Assembly (NCBI RefSeq): GCF_020382885.2
Contig: NC_058508.1
Span: forward strand, 7,680,055-7,744,054
DNA from: Scatophagus argus
Lineage: Eukaryota > Chordata > Actinopteri > Scatophagidae
DNA: 64,000 bases
Reading direction: 5' to 3'
Part shown: piece after piece, positions 2 through 34,100 of the stretch
Layout of the letters: every line of letters begins with the position of its first letter
Position numbering within the stretch: the stretch's first letter is position 1
Notes under the pieces: generated by a model
Told to the model about the DNA's origin: nothing
Databases searched by the model: none
What the model saw: only the letters and a program-made list of their open reading frames with translations
Translations under genes and position numbers: made by a program

Positions 2-3000
2 GACCCTTTCGGATGTCCATCTGTGTACCTAACAGGCACGGATCTGATGGAGGGTGTGGAGTGTGGAGTTGGAAATGTTTATGCCCAAGATCAGCTTGCT
101 GTAACCTATCTTGGGAAGAGAGACAAGGTTCGCATTGTGCTAAATGGGAAAGGGAGCTTTGCTCTGGCACTGGAGAAACTTCAAGACAGCCTGAAGAAAA
201 ACCTGAAGTTAGTTATGCTTCTAGCTGTACGATATGCGATTGCACACCAAATGGGAGCTCTGGAGAGTCTACTGAAACAGGGTCAAACTGACAAAACAAA
301 TGTAGAGACATATCACTGTTCAGAGAGCCAAGACAATGGCAAAAATGCTGCTGACTCCACCTCTGGCATGAGTCCAGACTACACTCTTGTCATCCATGGT
401 GGCGCAGGAGAGGACATGATGCTGAACACTGACGTGATTGGTGTCATTGAGTTTGCTCTACAGACGGCCTTAACCCTTGGATCCCAAGAGCTTCAACAAG
501 GTGGCAGGAGTCTGGACTCAGTTCAGAGGTCAGTGGAAGCTTTGGAGGACTGTTTCCTGTTCAATGCAGGTAAAGGCTCGGTATTTAACAAAGATGGCAA
601 AAATGAAATGGAAGCAACCATTGTAGATGGCAGTGCATCAAGATCAGGGTCTGTTGCTTGTGTGCAAAGTGTGAAGAATCCAATTAAAGCAGCCAGATGT
701 GTCATGGAGAAAAGCTCACATTCACTCATTGTGGGAGATGGAGCTGAGGAGTTTTTGCATGGGTTGGAGGAGAAAGAGAAGCCTGTTGGACCTGAGTATT
801 TCTACACTGATATACGTTACAGAGAGTTAACTGCAAAACTTAGTGGTAGAAATACCTCAAAAAACAATCACCCTCAAACAGTTGGAGCTGTGGCCCTGGA
901 TCGCTGGAATAGATTGGCTGCTGCAACCTCCACAGGAGGGTTAGTTGGAAAGCTGAAAGGGCGAGTTGGAGATACAGCAGTAGTAGGAGCAGGAATATAT
1001 GCTGATGACAAGGTAGCTATTACATGCTCTGGAGATGGAGATGTATTTCTGAGGCACACAGTTGCACAGAAAATAGCCAGTCTGTACCATTACAAAGGCT
1101 ATAGCCTTAGGCAGGCATGTAGAGAAGTGATGGCTGAAAATCTGAATGGGATCTGTGCAGGAATCATTGCTGTGGACATTAAAGGTGATGCCATCATTGA
1201 AACAAATTCTGGTGTGATCTTTGTTGCCTCAATGATAAATGGCATTCCACGGGCAGAAGTCCTGAGGCCCGTGAAGAGTTTCTCTAATGTAATCTGGGAA
1301 ACGGATGAGCTGGTTGCTTACCTTAATCCCAAGCCCTGGATCCCTGGGTCAGCCATTCTGACCAGAAAAGCTCTCAATGGGGCAAGCAGCATCTTCCAGT
1401 TGGCTACACCTGATTTTGTGGCAATGCTACAAGGAGCAAGGGCTGTGTCAAGCTTGCTATGTGAGCGATTGGGGGTGCAGCGCTGTGCTTTGGTTTTCAA
1501 TCCGACATCTGGACAGGCAGCACAAATCAGGCTTCTCCCACTTCATGGCCTAGAGCCAAAATGGCAGCCCCATCTTGCCCATGAAGAAGAATTCCACACT
1601 CATGATCCAGGCTATTGCACCTCAAAAAGTGGCCCTTGCTGGGATGATGAAGCACTGGCCCAGGTTCAAGCCAGGATTAGAAGTGAACTGCCAACACCAA
1701 ACGCACCCTCTTGTTTTGACTTTTTTGGAGATGCTTCCAATGATGACCTGTTCAGTCGCATTGTGCGTGGACAGCAACAACAGTGGAGAGTGTGGGAAGA
1801 CAGTGAGCATGTGGCCTTCCTCACACCATATCCAAACTCTCCTGGACTAACTGTTGTGGTGCCACGCAAGCCACTTTCCAGTGATATCTTCAAACTTGAA
1901 GAAGCTGATTACAAAGCTCTGATCATAGCCACTTATAAAGTTGCCCAACTACTTAAAGAGGGAATGAGAGCTCGAGGTATTGCACTGATCTTTGAGGGCT
2001 TTGAGATTGACTATGCCCATGCCAAGCTGATCCCTCTGTTACCTTCACCTGATGGCACTAACCTTGCTCAGATGCAGCCAGAATGCTGCCAAAGCTACCC
2101 TGGGTATGTGTCATCGTTGGATGGCCCAGCTGCTGATCCTGAGGCCCTCAAAACGATCCACTCAAAAATTACCCAGTGCAGGCCTCCTCATTCATGGGAA
2201 GAACCTCTGTCTCACCCCACTCTTGCCATCAAGAGCCAGTGGTATCGCAACCTGTTCCAGATTCAAAACACTCTTTTCCACAGCACAGTGGAATATTTCC
2301 ACAATTCCTGCCACTATTCCTATGCTCTAACCCCTCTAACCACTGACACCATCTCCTCACCTATGGGTCTGGGATCAGACTCAGAGCCAGTTTCTGTTAA
2401 TCTGCTGGGCCAGGATGTCTACCTGGCTGACTCAATGCAATTTGTACTTGAATACTTCCTTCGTTTCCAGGAGAACCTGCCAGGGACATATTACATATCT
2501 CCAAGCTTTAGAGGGGAAGATCCTGATGCCACACACTTGAATCAGTTCTACCACGTGGAGTGTGAATTGCTGGGTGACATGGACAATGCCATATCCATTG
2601 CGGAGGGATATGTGGCTCATCTCACCAAGTCTATGTTGAAGAATCACTCTGATAAGATCCTCGACACTGCTGGGACACTTAAACATGTCACAGCCATGCT
2701 GAGTAAGCTGGATGGAAAGACCCCACTACCAAGAGTTCCTCTAGACCAGGCCATTCCCATGATGCCCTCTGCTGACTGCGTTGAGTGGGTCCAAGATGGC
2801 CAGCCCCAGTTTGGCAGAAAACTAACACGCAAAGGAGAACGGGTCTTGATAGAGAAATATGGTGGTGCTGTCTGGCTGACTGAGATGGACCATCTAGGAG
2901 TCCCCTTCTACCAAGCATATGTGGAAAGTACTGGGCGGAGCAAAGCCAAAGCTGCTGACCTTCTCTTCGGGCTGGGTGAGACTGTGGGTCTTGGTGAACG

Positions 3001-3217
3001 TCATTCCACCCCTGTAATGGTACAGGAGGCCCTCAGGCACCATGCAGTGCCAGAGCAGTCCTACAAATGGTACATAAACATGCGGCAAATGAAACCACTC
3101 CTCACCAGTGGATGGGGCATGGGGACAGAGCGCTACTTGTGTTGGCTACTTCAGCATGATGACATCAGAGATATGCATATCATTCCTAGGATGAAAGGAA
3201 TAAAGTACATGCCCTGA
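2..3217 (+). CDS. Asparaginase-like / tandem HIT / AsnRS-like fusion protein (5' partial)
   Basis: The frame is open from the window edge, so the true start may lie upstream; the first in-frame ATG is at 47. Residues are counted from base 23. Residues 1-115 are not recognised. Residues 116-415 look like the isoaspartyl peptidase/L-asparaginase (Ntn hydrolase) family: VIHGGAGE, then HPQTVGAVALD with the presumed nucleophile Thr286, and GRVGDTAVVGAG. Residues 422-512 look like a HIT fold without its histidines (GQAAQIRLLPLHG). Residues 591-680 are a second HIT domain with YAHAKLIP, keeping the central His666. Residues 737-1064 are a class II synthetase core like AsnRS or archaeal asparagine synthetase, with motif 2 (SFRGED, Arg830) and motif 3 (GMGTER, Arg1037) but no anticodon-binding OB domain visible. 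There are no introns in 3.2 kb. An asparagine-related role is inferred, not shown. Confidence 0.82.
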   Translation, partial: DPFGCPSVYLTGTDLMEGVECGVGNVYAQDQLAVTYLGKRDKVRIVLNGKGSFALALEKLQDSLKKNLKLVMLLAVRYAIAHQMGALESLLKQGQTDKTNVETYHCSESQDNGKNAADSTSGMSPDYTLVIHGGAGEDMMLNTDVIGVIEFALQTALTLGSQELQQGGRSLDSVQRSVEALEDCFLFNAGKGSVFNKDGKNEMEATIVDGSASRSGSVACVQSVKNPIKAARCVMEKSSHSLIVGDGAEEFLHGLEEKEKPVGPEYFYTDIRYRELTAKLSGRNTSKNNHPQTVGAVALDRWNRLAAATSTGGLVGKLKGRVGDTAVVGAGIYADDKVAITCSGDGDVFLRHTVAQKIASLYHYKGYSLRQACREVMAENLNGICAGIIAVDIKGDAIIETNSGVIFVASMINGIPRAEVLRPVKSFSNVIWETDELVAYLNPKPWIPGSAILTRKALNGASSIFQLATPDFVAMLQGARAVSSLLCERLGVQRCALVFNPTSGQAAQIRLLPLHGLEPKWQPHLAHEEEFHTHDPGYCTSKSGPCWDDEALAQVQARIRSELPTPNAPSCFDFFGDASNDDLFSRIVRGQQQQWRVWEDSEHVAFLTPYPNSPGLTVVVPRKPLSSDIFKLEEADYKALIIATYKVAQLLKEGMRARGIALIFEGFEIDYAHAKLIPLLPSPDGTNLAQMQPECCQSYPGYVSSLDGPAADPEALKTIHSKITQCRPPHSWEEPLSHPTLAIKSQWYRNLFQIQNTLFHSTVEYFHNSCHYSYALTPLTTDTISSPMGLGSDSEPVSVNLLGQDVYLADSMQFVLEYFLRFQENLPGTYYISPSFRGEDPDATHLNQFYHVECELLGDMDNAISIAEGYVAHLTKSMLKNHSDKILDTAGTLKHVTAMLSKLDGKTPLPRVPLDQAIPMMPSADCVEWVQDGQPQFGRKLTRKGERVLIEKYGGAVWLTEMDHLGVPFYQAYVESTGRSKAKAADLLFGLGETVGLGERHSTPVMVQEALRHHAVPEQSYKWYINMRQMKPLLTSGWGMGTERYLCWLLQHDDIRDMHIIPRMKGIKYMP

Positions 3218-3774: not shown

Positions 3775-3780
3775 AATAAA
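3775..3780 (+). terminator. Polyadenylation signal of the fusion gene
   Basis: A canonical AATAAA lies 558 bp after the stop codon, in AT-rich sequence typical of a 3' UTR. No other coding signal lies between it and the stop codon. Confidence 0.6.
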
Positions 3781-23200: not shown

Positions 23201-24349
23201 GTGTATTTTCAAAAGAATTCTTATTTTATTGAATAATAATGTATATTAATTCAATTTAAAAGAAAAGCGCAAGAGAGAAATCATTATCCATGCAAAGAGG
23301 GACCAAAATGCCAGTGTCTTCAGTAACAAAGAGCATAATCAAGGTGCAAAGTATTTAATCTATCCCTGTGCTGTAACTCCAACAGAATCTGATTTCATGG
23401 CTCCGTCACTGTATGGCCTCACTATAGAGGAAGAAATCAGGTAACCACACAGAAACTATATGTGAATTACAACATTATTATCAAAAGAAATGTGACAAAG
23501 GAAGTTAATGGGCTAAACTATTTCAGAATTAATATCAAATTTAACTAAATGGACTGATTTTTTTTTTTTTAAAAGTCTTTTCTGTTATCGTCCCTGTGCA
23601 GTTTGTTTAATCAGAGAGCCATGAATGTGAGAAAGGCACTGCGTCTCTTCAACCTTCTCATGATGAAACGCAATGAAAGCCTGCGGGATCTCATCACACA
23701 GTTCAGATCCATCTCCAGCAGCCTGGACAAGATGCAGAAGAAGAACAAAACCATGGGCATTGCTGGAGGCACAACAGGTGCTGTGGGAGGGGTGACTGCT
23801 GTGTTGGGTATCGCCTTGGCTCCTGTCACCATGGGTGCCTCGTTGATTGCTACAGCTGTTGGTGCTGGTATGGTGGCTTCTGCTGGCGGTATGGGTGCCC
23901 ATGCTGCCAAAAAGGCAGACCAGAAGACTGTGACAAGAATGAAAGTTGAGAAACTAGTGAACGACTATAAGGCAGGTGTTGCTGACCTGGAACATTGCCT
24001 GGATTTTATCCTCTGTGGGATGAATGAGCTGCAGAGACATGACATCGCCAGGTTACAGAGGGCAGGAGTCCAGGCTGATGCGCTGAAGATGGCGCAGCTG
24101 TCACAGTCTGTGATCGGGAATTACATAAAACATGACAGGAAGACTCCTGTTGCACACACAAGTGGGATGTCATCTGAGAGACTACTTCAGGGTTTTGCCA
24201 AGGAAATTGATCAGTATTTCTCAGAAAAGAATGATCAGAAGCTGAAGAAGTCAAGTAAGAGTAGGTTTTCTGGTAGGGTCCACCTGCTGGCTGAAGATCT
24301 GCAAAACGAGCTAGATCACCTTAATAAGCTGTGGGAAAAGTTTAGTTGA
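20243..24349 (+). CDS. Apolipoprotein L-like protein with proline/tyrosine-rich N-terminus
   Basis: The exons are 20243-20311, 20504-20653, 20755-20886, 21239-21349, 21858-21938, 22606-22734, 22849-22935, 23089-23128, 23386-23440 and 23602-24349, giving 533 residues. The last exon holds the APOL-type region. An amphipathic helix (ALRLFNLLMMKRNESLRDLI) precedes a glycine-rich hydrophobic hairpin (GIAGGTTGAVGGVTAVLGIA and on to MVASAGGMGAHAAKK), with a helical C-terminus ending LNKLWEKFS. The first seven exons all begin and end in phase 0 and encode polyproline runs (PVDPPPRPPG, AQPPLPPCRPPP) plus tyrosine motifs IYEDL, IYECI, VYNETEY and IYGML. APOL proteins are membrane- or lipid-associated; human APOL1 forms ion channels. 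A small exon between 23128 and 23386 could have been missed. Confidence 0.85.
20975..21112 (+). repeat. Teleost interspersed repeat fragment (AGCTAAGCTAAC family)
   Basis: Contains TTAAGCTAAGCTAACTG, TTGGCTCCAGCTGCATATTT and CTAACTCTTGGTAAAATAG, which match a short interspersed repeat common in percomorph fish. A second copy in the same orientation lies near 55855-55980. Confidence 0.5.
21113..21153. repeat. (AAT)n microsatellite
   Basis: About 40 bp of AAT/ATA trinucleotide repeats directly after the interspersed repeat fragment, within an apol-like intron. Confidence 0.85.
22225..22350 (+). repeat. Teleost interspersed repeat fragment (ATCCATCCA/GTTGTTGA family)
   Basis: TGATGTCATTAGTTTTGCAG, then ATTCAATGGTTGTTGAAAT, match parts of a widespread fish repeat. 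A clearer copy lies at 59955-60160. The copy is diverged and internally shortened. Confidence 0.4.
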
Positions 24350-31173: not shown

Positions 31174-34100
31174 TCACTGTAGCTGGCATCCTCGACAGTC
31201 ATCCTCAGGCTCGGTGTTGTCAGAGGAGTAGGAGCTCTCCTCGCTCACTGTCAAACGCAACACAGTTATGTTAGACAGATGTATAGCATGAAACATTAAT
31301 GATTCATGCACACAAACCTCAAACTCAGACATTCAGGTAGCATATCAAGAAAAAAGCTTATATGAAAATGACTTACACCACTCGGTCTGTATAGGGAGGA
31401 AGGCCTTGTCTCCGTTCTCTCTGATCATCTCCTCTATCTTATCCAGTAGAACTGACACACTCCTGTCCTTGCCAGGGGTCTTACTGTCCAGGACGTGGTA
31501 ATAGTTCCCACAGTATTCCAGTAGTCTTTGCAGCTCCCGCCCACCTCGAAGAATGTGCTCCTCGATGGGCGTGCGGCCCAGCCAATCACCACAGCTGAAC
31601 AACACCATGGTGTGGAGGCACGCACTGTCCCCAAACAGAGTCTCTATGTGAGCCAGGAGCGTTCGCCTCTTCCTGGCGGTGAGCGATGACACCACGGGGA
31701 GGACCAGCAGGAGGGTGTGGGGTCCGGGTCGCAGGAGGGCAGCTCCACGCTGGGACTCCTGGCGGATGCGCTTTGGGGTTCGCCTGACCGAGAACCAATC
31801 CCAGCCCGGGGTGTCAACGATGGTGACCCGACGACCAGATACGAGCGCCTGCCTCCTAAGGCACAGCTCTGTCTCCTGGCCCGACTCAAAGTATCGACGG
31901 CCCAGAATGGAGTTCCCCACCGAGCTCTTCCCGACACCCTTCCAGCCCAACAACAGCAGTCTCAACTCTGTAAAGACAGAGAGAGAAAGAGAGACAAAGA
32001 CAGAATGAGATAGGGAGAGAGACTGTGGGAGAATGGCTAACCATTAGGCAGTAAAGCAATATTGACTGACTACCACTGAGTAAGCTATTTCCTAGAACAC
32101 CAGTTCTGTAGCTTTGTTTTTCCAGGAACAGCATCACACCATGTATGCAATCATTTCTCTCCTTAAGTGCAGGACTCACTCACTTGCACACACAACACAG
32201 ATGGACAGATGAACACACAGACACACACACACACACACAGAGCTCTCTTACCTCTGGGAGGTCCTCCGATCATCTGCTCCCTCTGTCTAGCGTGTTCCTC
32301 CATCCTCATCCTCTCCTCTTCCAGAGCTCTCCTGGCTTGCTCTTCCTCTAGTAAAATCAACTCGTTCACCTCAAAGTACCAGCCTGCACGGCAGCGACAA
32401 TATATTATTCATTGTTTTCAATCAGTTCTCCAACACAAAGAAATGGTGCCTGGTATACAGAGTTATTTGTGTGTATCACAGCACAGAAAGTGCAACAAAG
32501 TTACTTCATTTGAAAAACCAACCTTGGTTGTCAGTGATCATTTCCTCCACCTTTTCCATCAGCTCTGGTACCTGTGAGTTGTCTTCTGTGTCTTTTCGAG
32601 TGTTATCAAATGCGTGGTACCTAAAAGTGGAAAAACAGCAACAGTTTTTAAAGGGGCACTTCAGCAGTTTTACACATAAAGTTAACTTTGTGTCATCACG
32701 AGGAGATCTACTCAGCCTGTAAAAAGCCAAATTTAAAATATTTTCTGTGGCCCTAAAGGGATCTCCCCAAATTTAGGGTTTGGGGTTATCTCTTTGGGAC
32801 TGAACATTTTTGGAGCTTGAACCATCATAACGTCTAAAGATTAGGACACCTCAACCTCTGACTCTTCAACTCTCACCGTTCCTTTTAAGATCTGTCCACA
32901 AACTTTACAAAAAAGGCAACACCACATCACCTGAATCAAGTGATGTCGTTTGAGGCAGTTCATTTATTTCAACACTTCGTATGACTTTTGCACTCAGGCA
33001 TTAGTACTCCCCAAGACCTGTACTGTAAAACGTGGATGTGTAAAATTCATTTTAAAATATGTATTGAAGTATTGCAGTACTGTTGCTCCAACCACAAAAT
33101 TCAGTAATTATTTGTGACAAAGACTTGACACTTCATTCAGAGCTATTTTTCATCAAATCAAAGTGAAAGGTGAAAGAGAAAATGTAAAGAGCGAGTTTGT
33201 ACCTGCTGCCACATCTCTCCACCAGCCACTGTAGGGCCTCTCCAGTGTTCGCTATGTGCTCCTCAATGAACACACCTTTAGGCAGCTTGTCCAATCCAGT
33301 AAAGACCACCATGGAGTACCTCCATGTCCCTCCACCCAGCGCACCGAGCTGCTCCTCTGCAGCCCTCCTGTGGATGTCAGTGAAGGGCTGGGTGACCGAC
33401 AAGACCAGCAGGATGGCGTGGGGTCCAGGGGGGCAGAGTATGGCTCCCATGCATGGCCCCTCACTGTCCAGGCTTGGCGGGGGCTGCGGTGGGCTGTCTG
33501 ACTCGGCACCAGCGTTGTCGTTGCTGTCAGCTTCCTCGTTGTCCTCTGGGTCACTGGGAATGGCCCACGGTGGAGTGTCGACCACAGTGACCCGTCGGCC
33601 ATAGATCTCCGTCTGGCCCACGTTGCTGTGGGTAGTCTCCGTCCCAGAGTCGAAGATCTCATCTCCCAGGATGGTGTTGGCGGTGGAGGTCTTGCCAGAC
33701 TGTGGCCCCCCCAGGATCAGCAGTCTACGCTCAGGGGGATGTCGGCCCCTGGGGTCCCCTGTTGAAGCACAGGAAGATTAGACTGGAGGTTCCCCACAAA
33801 GACGGGTTTGTTAGTTTGGTTTTCTGACTGCTAACTCAGAGGAAATGATTTTTATTCTTTACTCTCCTGTCTGGTCTTGAAAGTACTGCCAAAAAAAGTG
33901 CTTTGTGGAGATGAGGGCACTTGTTTCCAATGCAACATATTACCTGATGCATCTCCTTCTCATACACTTTCCCTCTCTCATTTCTGTTCTCACTTCTCAG
34001 AGTTCCCCTTCTTATCTGATCACCTTGCTGCCTTATACCTGTTCTCCTGAACTGTCTCCTCTTTCATTCTTATGCTTTTCTTGTCCCCCTTCTCTCTCCC

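Follow-up and report, generated by a model that had tools for sequence, protein, structure and literature searches.

What would a fish do with a single protein that appears able both to activate asparagine and to break it down? This question is raised by the left end of a stretch of 64,000 nucleotides from Scatophagus argus (NC_058508.1, positions 7,680,055 to 7,744,054; hereafter the window), where one reading frame encodes an asparaginase, two HIT-like modules, and the core of a class II synthetase. We found that this frame is the last exon of a gene for a five-domain protein, and that a bacterium encodes the same five domains in the same order. Judged from its domain families, the fusion has about one chance in two of being a multifunctional enzyme for the synthesis and turnover of an acylated, asparagine-derived phosphoramidate of adenosine monophosphate (AMP), that is, a nucleotide lipid with a phosphorus-nitrogen (P-N) bond.

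Gene and domain architecture

The plus-strand frame at positions 2 to 3217 of the window is unbroken over 1071 amino acids (aa) and open at the left window edge. To model the gene from splice signals and homology, 9 kb upstream of the window was added (L095). In this model, the frame is the last of three coding exons, and the spliced product has 1583 aa. The introns are all GT-AG and in phase 0, and the lone TGA met in the genome search lies inside the intron that precedes exon 3. The vertebrate search covered this one genome (570.7-Mb assembly, 48 contigs), in which the window is G000:C16:7680055-7744054.

From the N to the C terminus, the protein includes a choline/carnitine acyltransferase-like domain (Carn_acyltransf), an N-terminal nucleophile (Ntn) asparaginase/isoaspartyl peptidase, a degenerate HIT module (HIT1), a second HIT module (HIT2), and a core of asparaginyl-tRNA synthetase (AsnRS) type without an anticodon-binding domain. 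The Pfam search of the 1071-aa frame matched Asparaginase_2 (residues 128-411, E 2.5e-78), HIT (591-663, E 4.6e-6), and tRNA-synt_2 (736-1064, E 7.6e-28). An earlier note on this DNA, made from the letters of the window, had described one frame with the asparaginase, two HIT-like modules, and a class II core without anticodon domain, and Pfam, the alignments, and the structural model agree with it. Its count of four domains was incomplete, as the fifth, the acyltransferase, lies beyond the window edge. When the domain calls were checked by profile search, Pfam recovered the asparaginase, HIT2, and the synthetase core; HIT1 was not called and is supported by alignment.

When the front of the spliced protein (607 aa) was searched with Pfam, the acyltransferase domain matched at E 1.1e-54, and three exon pieces each match Carn_acyltransf alone (E 1.2e-11, 2.5e-12, and 2e-17). 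It belongs to PF00755 and contains the motif EHSAVDG, whose histidine, His300 of the spliced protein, we take to be the likely catalytic residue. In the asparaginase domain, T293, TSTGG, and GRVGD, whose functional roles we assume from the family, are kept, with Ser in place of the third Thr, and activity is predicted. The solved beta-subunit chains of its PDB matches begin at query residue 293.

A scan of one genome per bacterial or archaeal species gave 187 relatives of the core, and the best 80 were analysed. The closest lies on a 6460-base contig (QNER01000461.1; L013) of a metagenome-assembled genome (MAG) of 'Candidatus Parabeggiatoa'; its core is 61% identical to that of the fish, and the next among the best 80 is 48%. 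This contig carries the five-part order in one 1499-aa frame with an open 5′ end (Pfam Carn_acyltransf 9.4e-55, Asparaginase_2 7.6e-76, HIT 1e-6, and tRNA-synt_2 5.5e-25). Its product is 39.7% identical to fish residues 102-1583 over 1566 columns, and the motifs are conserved. Since a bacterial contig encodes the identical domain order in a single frame, the fish frame is no chance joint, and an artefact of assembly or frame was rejected on the same ground. Bacterial contamination of the fish genome was rejected on the three coding exons with GT-AG introns and the vertebrate-type Pfam neighbours.

On the bacterial side, a repeat of 21 bases that lies downstream of the frame is present in 19 copies in the MAG, two of them on this contig, versus 0 for the pattern read backwards. 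Because this MAG-wide repeat stands beside the frame, the contig looks native, and eukaryotic contamination of the MAG was rejected; the contig may alternatively be chimeric. The frame has a G+C content of 0.48-0.57 in 500-base steps and its flank 0.39-0.43; therefore, the frame may be foreign in its bacterium too. In the order to which this genome belongs, 5 of 42 genomes match somewhere, and the fusion was found in 1 of 42, the MAG itself. The bacterial front (residues 1-500) had no tblastn match among plasmids at E 1e-3. A five-domain enzyme common to a vertebrate and a bacterium suggests gene sharing, for which the tree described below gives no direction.

In addition, Rfam and tRNA scans gave no matches. 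Viral contigs yielded zero pattern matches when scanned with the whole protein, and 39 pattern matches without a relative among them when scanned with a second query (A4). The phage search returned 10 unannotated records of at most 27.1% identity, and the PHROGs search returned two families, both with function unassigned.

Synthetase core and HIT modules

The best NCBIfam models for the core are named 'asparagine synthetase A' (PRK06462 type, E 1.2e-57), and its scores stay far below their equivalog cut-offs, at 195.6 versus 322 bits for the best model. In tblastn against plasmids (64 records matched), it was 41.5-48.0% identical to genes of Exiguobacterium, Xenorhabdus, Pantoea, Peribacillus, and Streptomyces. 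It is also 37.8% identical to AgnA of the agrocin-84 operon, and it belongs to an AgnA-like family: a class II AsnRS-type core with the catalytic motifs kept and no anticodon domain. Pfam found no N-terminal OB-fold anticodon-binding domain of AsnRS, and the core is preceded by HIT2. Residues R114 and E116 of motif 2 and R321 of motif 3 are invariant (58/58 aligned family rows).

The AlphaFold model of the core (pLDDT 92.7, pTM 0.92) had as its top Foldseek match an AsnRS with asparaginyl-adenylate (1x54; E 3.6e-26, TMq 0.83). Among the 50 matches listed, 34 were AsnRS, the first nine included, 16 were aspartyl-tRNA synthetases (AspRS), and none was an asparagine synthetase. The earlier note had compared the core with both AsnRS and archaeal-type asparagine synthetase (AS-AR), and had proposed this structural comparison, which favoured AsnRS. 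The second likeness is the poorer one. Where AspRS has its side-chain Lys, which we take to be the aspartate-specificity residue, the core has Leu93; this position is Leu in 57 of 58 rows and Lys in 0 of 58, in an alignment whose rows include no AS-AR sequence. AS-AR activity was rejected on this position.

In a quick tree of the AgnA-like family, the fish and Parabeggiatoa cores are sisters (SH-aLRT 100) amid bacterial AgnA-like genes. The tree holds 58 rows (the fish, 49 of the 80 genome loci, and 8 of the 9 plasmid loci), with SH-aLRT as its only support, a midpoint root, and no AsnRS or AS-AR outgroup.

The surroundings of AgnA-like genes were surveyed in 89 loci (the best 80 of the 187 genome relatives and nine plasmid loci) by tblastn at E<1e-5 with our own reference proteins. 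The neighbours were S66 in 69 loci, methyltransferase in 44, ATP-grasp in 21, aminoacyl-tRNA synthetase (aaRS)-related genes in 10, alanyl-tRNA synthetase (AlaRS) in 8, leucyl-tRNA synthetase (LeuRS) in 8, and the major facilitator superfamily in 7. Among the 65 loci with a length of 20 kb or more, 50 contain S66; its gap to the core was 0-2.5 kb in 28, 2.5-5 kb in 11, 5-7.5 kb in 7, and 7.5-10 kb in 4, with 41 of the 50 on the same strand, a distance profile without a random-gene control. Several plasmid genes adjoin a second AlaRS, LeuRS, or aaRS-like gene, an S-adenosylmethionine-dependent methyltransferase, and MccF/S66. For instance, methyltransferases and extra or partial aaRS genes accompany L001, L002, L004, L005, and L007, with S66/LD-carboxypeptidase/MccF-like genes in all except L001. 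S66 and a methyltransferase lie near the gene of L012, nonribosomal peptide synthetase-type genes near that of L011, and neither S66 nor aaRS genes in the surroundings of L003 and L006. MccF-type peptidases are self-immunity devices against non-hydrolysable aminoacyl-nucleotides, and S66/MccF-like genes near an AgnA-like core are as expected for phosphoramidate antibiotics of this kind. The same self-immunity role is given for AgnB2, an extra aaRS copy, in PMC4392301 (cited here in part). From these contexts, the bacterial AgnA-like genes, several of which bear the name 'asparagine synthetase A' or 'amino acid--tRNA ligase-related', are probably aaRS-inhibitor biosynthesis genes.

The domain types found in the fish protein were met only now and then in these loci: HIT in 3/89, asparaginase in 3/89, and acyltransferase in 1/89. 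An asparaginase lies 12 bp downstream of the AgnA-like gene in L083 and 3.5 kb away in L047. In Pseudoalteromonas ostreae (L051, 7621-9556), a 310-aa tandem HIT with the triad HMHFQ ends one base before the gene; in L074, HIT-like frames flank it on both sides, the second at E 1.8e-4 only. In a Herpetosiphonaceae locus (L017, 189-8254), the AgnA-like gene is accompanied by a methyltransferase, a LuxE-like gene, two prolyl-tRNA synthetase-like genes, and a HIT with the MccH motif (named by eye, except the HIT and the AgnA-like gene); by analogy, the product of this cluster could be a prolyl phosphoramidate akin to phosmidosine. On a Pantoea plasmid, a GNAT acetyltransferase is fused to the AgnA-like core (L003:9434-11029), by its sequence a further case in which a modifying or immunity-type domain is joined to such a synthetase. 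Thus, the fish fusion joins functions that bacteria sometimes, rarely in these loci, keep adjacent.

The HIT2 module reads EGFEIDYAHAK at its signature. The MccH clade is defined by the motif ExxxxxHxHxKxx (PMC7157772, cited here in part); the fish sequence retains the Glu, the central His, and the Lys but falls outside this motif with a Tyr in place of the first His. In a tree of 19 rows (plasmid rows being 10 of 71 matched records, with the Hyalangium minutum MccH itself outside the tree), 10 rows, with fish HIT2 and the Salmonella-type HIT among them, form an MccH-like clade apart from other HITs with support 97/94. The signature with His or Tyr first is present in 8 of the 10 clade rows, the two HIT1 modules being the exceptions, and in 0 of the 9 others. 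On these residues and this grouping, fish HIT2 is MccH-like, short of a full MccH. MccH, which splits the P-N bond of aspartamide-adenylate, strictly requires its Lys and central His; most of six homologs tested, including that of Salmonella enterica, conferred resistance to the undecorated antibiotic (PMC7157772, in part). The Salmonella HIT of L008, to which fish HIT2 was aligned, is likely that same protein.

HIT1 given to Pfam alone was not called at a limit of E 5, where filters remove most weak matches. It is alignable with bacterial HIT proteins and with the Parabeggiatoa protein, and in the tree it stands in the MccH-like clade beside the bacterial HIT1, on long branches that make the placement unsure. 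A low-confidence model of the tandem (pLDDT 55.6, pTM 0.40) has an identical order of strands and helices in both halves, and the best PDB matches of this poor model by Foldseek are HIT proteins, aligned to one half or the other, a result that is supportive only. The catalytic residues of HIT1 are lost.

A stand-alone tandem-HIT gene is present elsewhere in the same genome (L098; G000:C2:24661609-24662241, minus strand). Over 223 aa, its product shares 60% identity with the HIT1-HIT2 part of the fusion, and it carries the same EGFEIDYAHAKL motif. By its sequence, it could possibly be a separate hydrolase acting on the same substrate as the fusion.

Candidate chemistry and its alternatives

We propose that the fusion probably deals with P-N bonded compounds of asparagine and AMP rather than with the proofreading of adenylates, because many close relatives of its core sit in antibiotic-like clusters and HIT2 is MccH-like. 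The substrates, reaction order, and product given here would follow what the enzyme families do. First, the AgnA-like core would activate asparagine with ATP as Asn-AMP; the side-chain amide would then close to an aminosuccinimide, whose nitrogen would be joined to AMP by a P-N bond. The analogy is microcin C synthesis. Second, the acyltransferase-like domain would move a fatty acyl group from acyl-CoA onto the amine or a ribose hydroxyl. Third, HIT2 would cut the P-N bond to release AMP and an amide, and the asparaginase/isoaspartyl peptidase would hydrolyse the freed asparagine or isoasparagine, with making and disposal on one chain. The degenerate HIT1 would then serve as the non-catalytic partner within a HIT pseudo-dimer.

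The candidate product in fish would be of the dinogunellin class. Dinogunellins are fatty-acyl adenosine phospholipids of fish roe with a P-N bond (PMC6429109, section 7, cited here in part). They are present in mature eggs and absent from immature ones, and their biological role is unknown according to the same review (in part). We propose the link because an acyltransferase, an asparagine-activating AgnA-like core, and an MccH-like HIT suit the making and clearing of such a molecule. Dinogunellins reportedly contain 2-aminosuccinimide, i.e. cyclised asparagine. Tentatively, and with the odds against it, the gene can be put forward from its sequence as a first candidate for the genetic basis of dinogunellin-type nucleotide lipids. 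Its five-domain product, which a vertebrate and a giant sulfur bacterium would share by horizontal transfer, would make an acylated Asn-AMP phosphoramidate and carry the off-switch, the MccH-like hydrolase and the asparaginase, on the same chain. Among the papers listed in our literature searches (with subscription journals mostly outside them), we found neither a gene for dinogunellins nor a description of the five-domain fusion.

Few natural products are nucleotides with a P-N bond, and in animals the fish-roe dinogunellins have long been a puzzle of toxicology. With an antibiotic-type synthetase core, an MccH-like HIT, and an acyltransferase in one vertebrate gene, this puzzle becomes open to a direct genetic test. 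If the proposal is true, a vertebrate employs antibiotic-type P-N nucleotide chemistry. Furthermore, the finding suggests that an entire enzyme of five domains has been shared between a vertebrate and bacteria, and many bacterial 'asparagine synthetase A' annotations would be parts of aaRS-inhibitor clusters.

Several points weigh against the phosphoramidate proposal. Phosphoramidase activity of HIT2 is not assured, because the first His of the triad is Tyr, in the Parabeggiatoa protein and the stand-alone paralog as well. Beside the AgnA-like genes of L051 and L074, the HITs belong to the HxHxQ type and are not MccH-like. The domain set of the fish protein is unusual for the AgnA-like family, since most loci have S66 and not HIT, and its asparaginase domain is left unexplained. 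The vertebrate evidence comes from one genome, of a fish that may or may not bear dinogunellins. Finally, 2 of the 6 MccH homologs tested were inactive (PMC7157772, in part), and ordinary Hint proteins likewise cleave P-N bonds of other AMP amides (PMC6429109, in part).

The protein could instead serve detoxification or defence, disarming microbial peptide-nucleotide antibiotics such as microcin C: HIT2 would cut the P-N bond, the asparaginase would remove the amide, the acyltransferase would cap the amine, and the core would be a decoy or run in reverse. MccE-type acetyltransferases do cap the amine of such antibiotics, and the GNAT fusion in Pantoea and the stand-alone tandem-HIT paralog would suit this role. 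So would the protection of cells by MccH homologs from stand-alone genes, e.g. that of S. enterica (PMC7157772, in part). However, disposal needs no synthetase, and the invariant Arg and Glu of motif 2 and Arg of motif 3 make the core look like an active one; we consider defence unlikely.

Alternatively, the HIT pair might be a transferase like GalT or APA, which would move AMP from Asn-AMP onto an acylated acceptor, so that all five domains would be biosynthetic. A tandem HIT with one degenerate half resembles the GalT-type pseudo-dimers. GalT also appears at Foldseek ranks 22, 26, and 43 over 283-309 columns, at a TM of only 0.27 and from a low-confidence model, and the Tyr for the first His in all three fusion and paralog sequences is in keeping with this role. 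Nevertheless, HIT2 groups with the MccH-like hydrolases and keeps the MccH-specific Lys, and this role also seems improbable to us.

The earlier note had proposed aspartyl- or asparaginyl-adenylate: one enzyme would make, remove, or proof-read it while cleaving asparagine. Such an enzyme could serve quality control of aaRS or sensing of asparagine and ATP. The general idea of an AMP-amino-acid chemistry linked to asparagine is supported, and the AsnRS fold and residues, the splitting of AMP-X bonds by the HIT family, and the asparaginase domain all agree with it. The specific role is not the best fit and looks rather doubtful, as the near relatives of the core and HIT2 are genes of aaRS-inhibitor-like (Trojan-horse antibiotic) clusters and P-N enzymes, and the acyltransferase is left unexplained. 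Least probable is an AS-AR (Asp + NH3 + ATP -> Asn) coupled with the asparaginase as a regulated Asp/Asn switch, with HIT and acyltransferase accessory, since the model names and the labels of some bacterial relatives that favour it meet the absent Lys, the score below cut-off, and clusters in which the label is probably wrong for the AgnA-like clade.

Surroundings of the gene and comparison with known systems

Ten neighbouring pieces were searched with Pfam, and eight had matches: MID51-like, aspartyl protease, ApoL, bZIP, AIG1 (two), ADSL_C, and, upstream of the window, rhodanese. The MccF/S66, aaRS, and methyltransferase neighbours of the AgnA-like family were absent among these ten pieces, as expected for a vertebrate. 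The features are collected in Table 1.

Table 1. Features of the fusion gene and its surroundings (positions are those of the window unless a contig or L095 is named)
Feature	Position	Strand	Basis or remark
Coding exon 1	G000:C16:7678192-7678635 (L095 7138-7581)	+	Splice signals, homology
Coding exon 2	G000:C16:7678745-7679146 (L095 7691-8092)	+	Splice signals, homology
Coding exon 3	G000:C16:7679366 (L095 8312) to window 3217	+	Splice signals, homology
C-terminal end of choline/carnitine-acyltransferase-like domain	2..286	+	34% identity to end of L013 domain, E 4.7e-7; remainder upstream of window
Ntn-hydrolase asparaginase/isoaspartyl peptidase domain	377..1237	+	Pfam Asparaginase_2 E 2.5e-78; PDB 2zak E 8.7e-57
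Asparaginase motifs	QTVGAVA with presumed nucleophile Thr293, 875-895; ATSTGG, 923-940; GRVGD, 959 on; CSGDGD, 1025 on	+	
HIT1, HIT-like module lacking the catalytic His (QAAQIRLLPL, 1514-1543)	1280..1711	+	Alignments, tree, secondary structure of poor model
HIT2, MccH-like	1721..2167	+	Pfam HIT E 1e-5; 35.8% to Salmonella HIT, 45% to L013; tree 97/94
EGFEIDYAHAKLIPL: MccH signature E-x5-H-x-H-x-K, first His replaced by Tyr	1994..2038	+	Alignment, tree
AsnRS-type class II core, AgnA-like family, without anticodon-binding domain	2171..3214	+	NCBIfam, tblastn, model
Core motif 2, FRGED	2507-2521	+	
Core motif 3, GMGTERYLCW	inside 3104-3151	+	
Stop codon	3215..3217	+	Frame translation
AATAAA, putative, likely polyadenylation signal	3775..3780	+	Sequence; chosen over further AATAAA copies that follow the stop codon (3349, 4202)
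ApoL-type exon	23573-24346	+	Pfam; ordinary vertebrate gene
AIG1/GIMAP-type GTPase exons	31348-33777	-	Pfam; ordinary vertebrate gene
Two rhodanese-type (TST/MPST-like) tandem genes	L095:17-667, 1726-2993	-	Upstream of fusion; second by eye

With the choline/carnitine O-acyltransferases (PF00755), the fish protein shares the domain family and an EHS-type motif. However, the carnitine-binding motif of carnitine acyltransferases is of GRTETIRSCT type, whereas that of the fish protein reads GRCDPTYSL and, by eye, looks altered; the acceptor of this domain is perhaps other than carnitine. With the isoaspartyl peptidase/L-asparaginase of E. coli type (PDB 2zak; 4o0c series), it shares the Ntn family, the Thr nucleophile, TSTGG, and GRVGD. 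The E. coli-type enzyme is free-standing, whereas the fish domain is fused and its TGxGE-type motif reads SGDGD.

The MccH of H. minutum and its S. enterica homolog have the Glu/Lys signature and the central His in common with fish HIT2. MccH is a single HIT with the first His, whereas the fish module, with Tyr at that place, forms one half of a tandem within a fusion. AgnA of the agrocin 84 operon (Agrobacterium K84, pAgK84) is an AsnRS-like core without anticodon-binding domain, as in the fish (PMC4392301, in part). It is stand-alone, with a methyltransferase, the LeuRS AgnB2, and an MccF-like gene as neighbours; tblastn probes found no HIT, asparaginase, or acyltransferase there.

The Parabeggiatoa protein has the same order as the fish protein, and both read E-x5-Y-x-H-x-K; the bacterial gene is intron-free and cut at its 5′ end by the contig, whereas the fish gene has three coding exons. 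Dinogunellins, finally, are of the product type predicted for the fish fusion; they are metabolites, and their link with the gene is a proposal. Agrocin 84, microcin C, phosmidosine, and the dinogunellins are all P-N bonded nucleotides (PMC6429109, section 7, in part).

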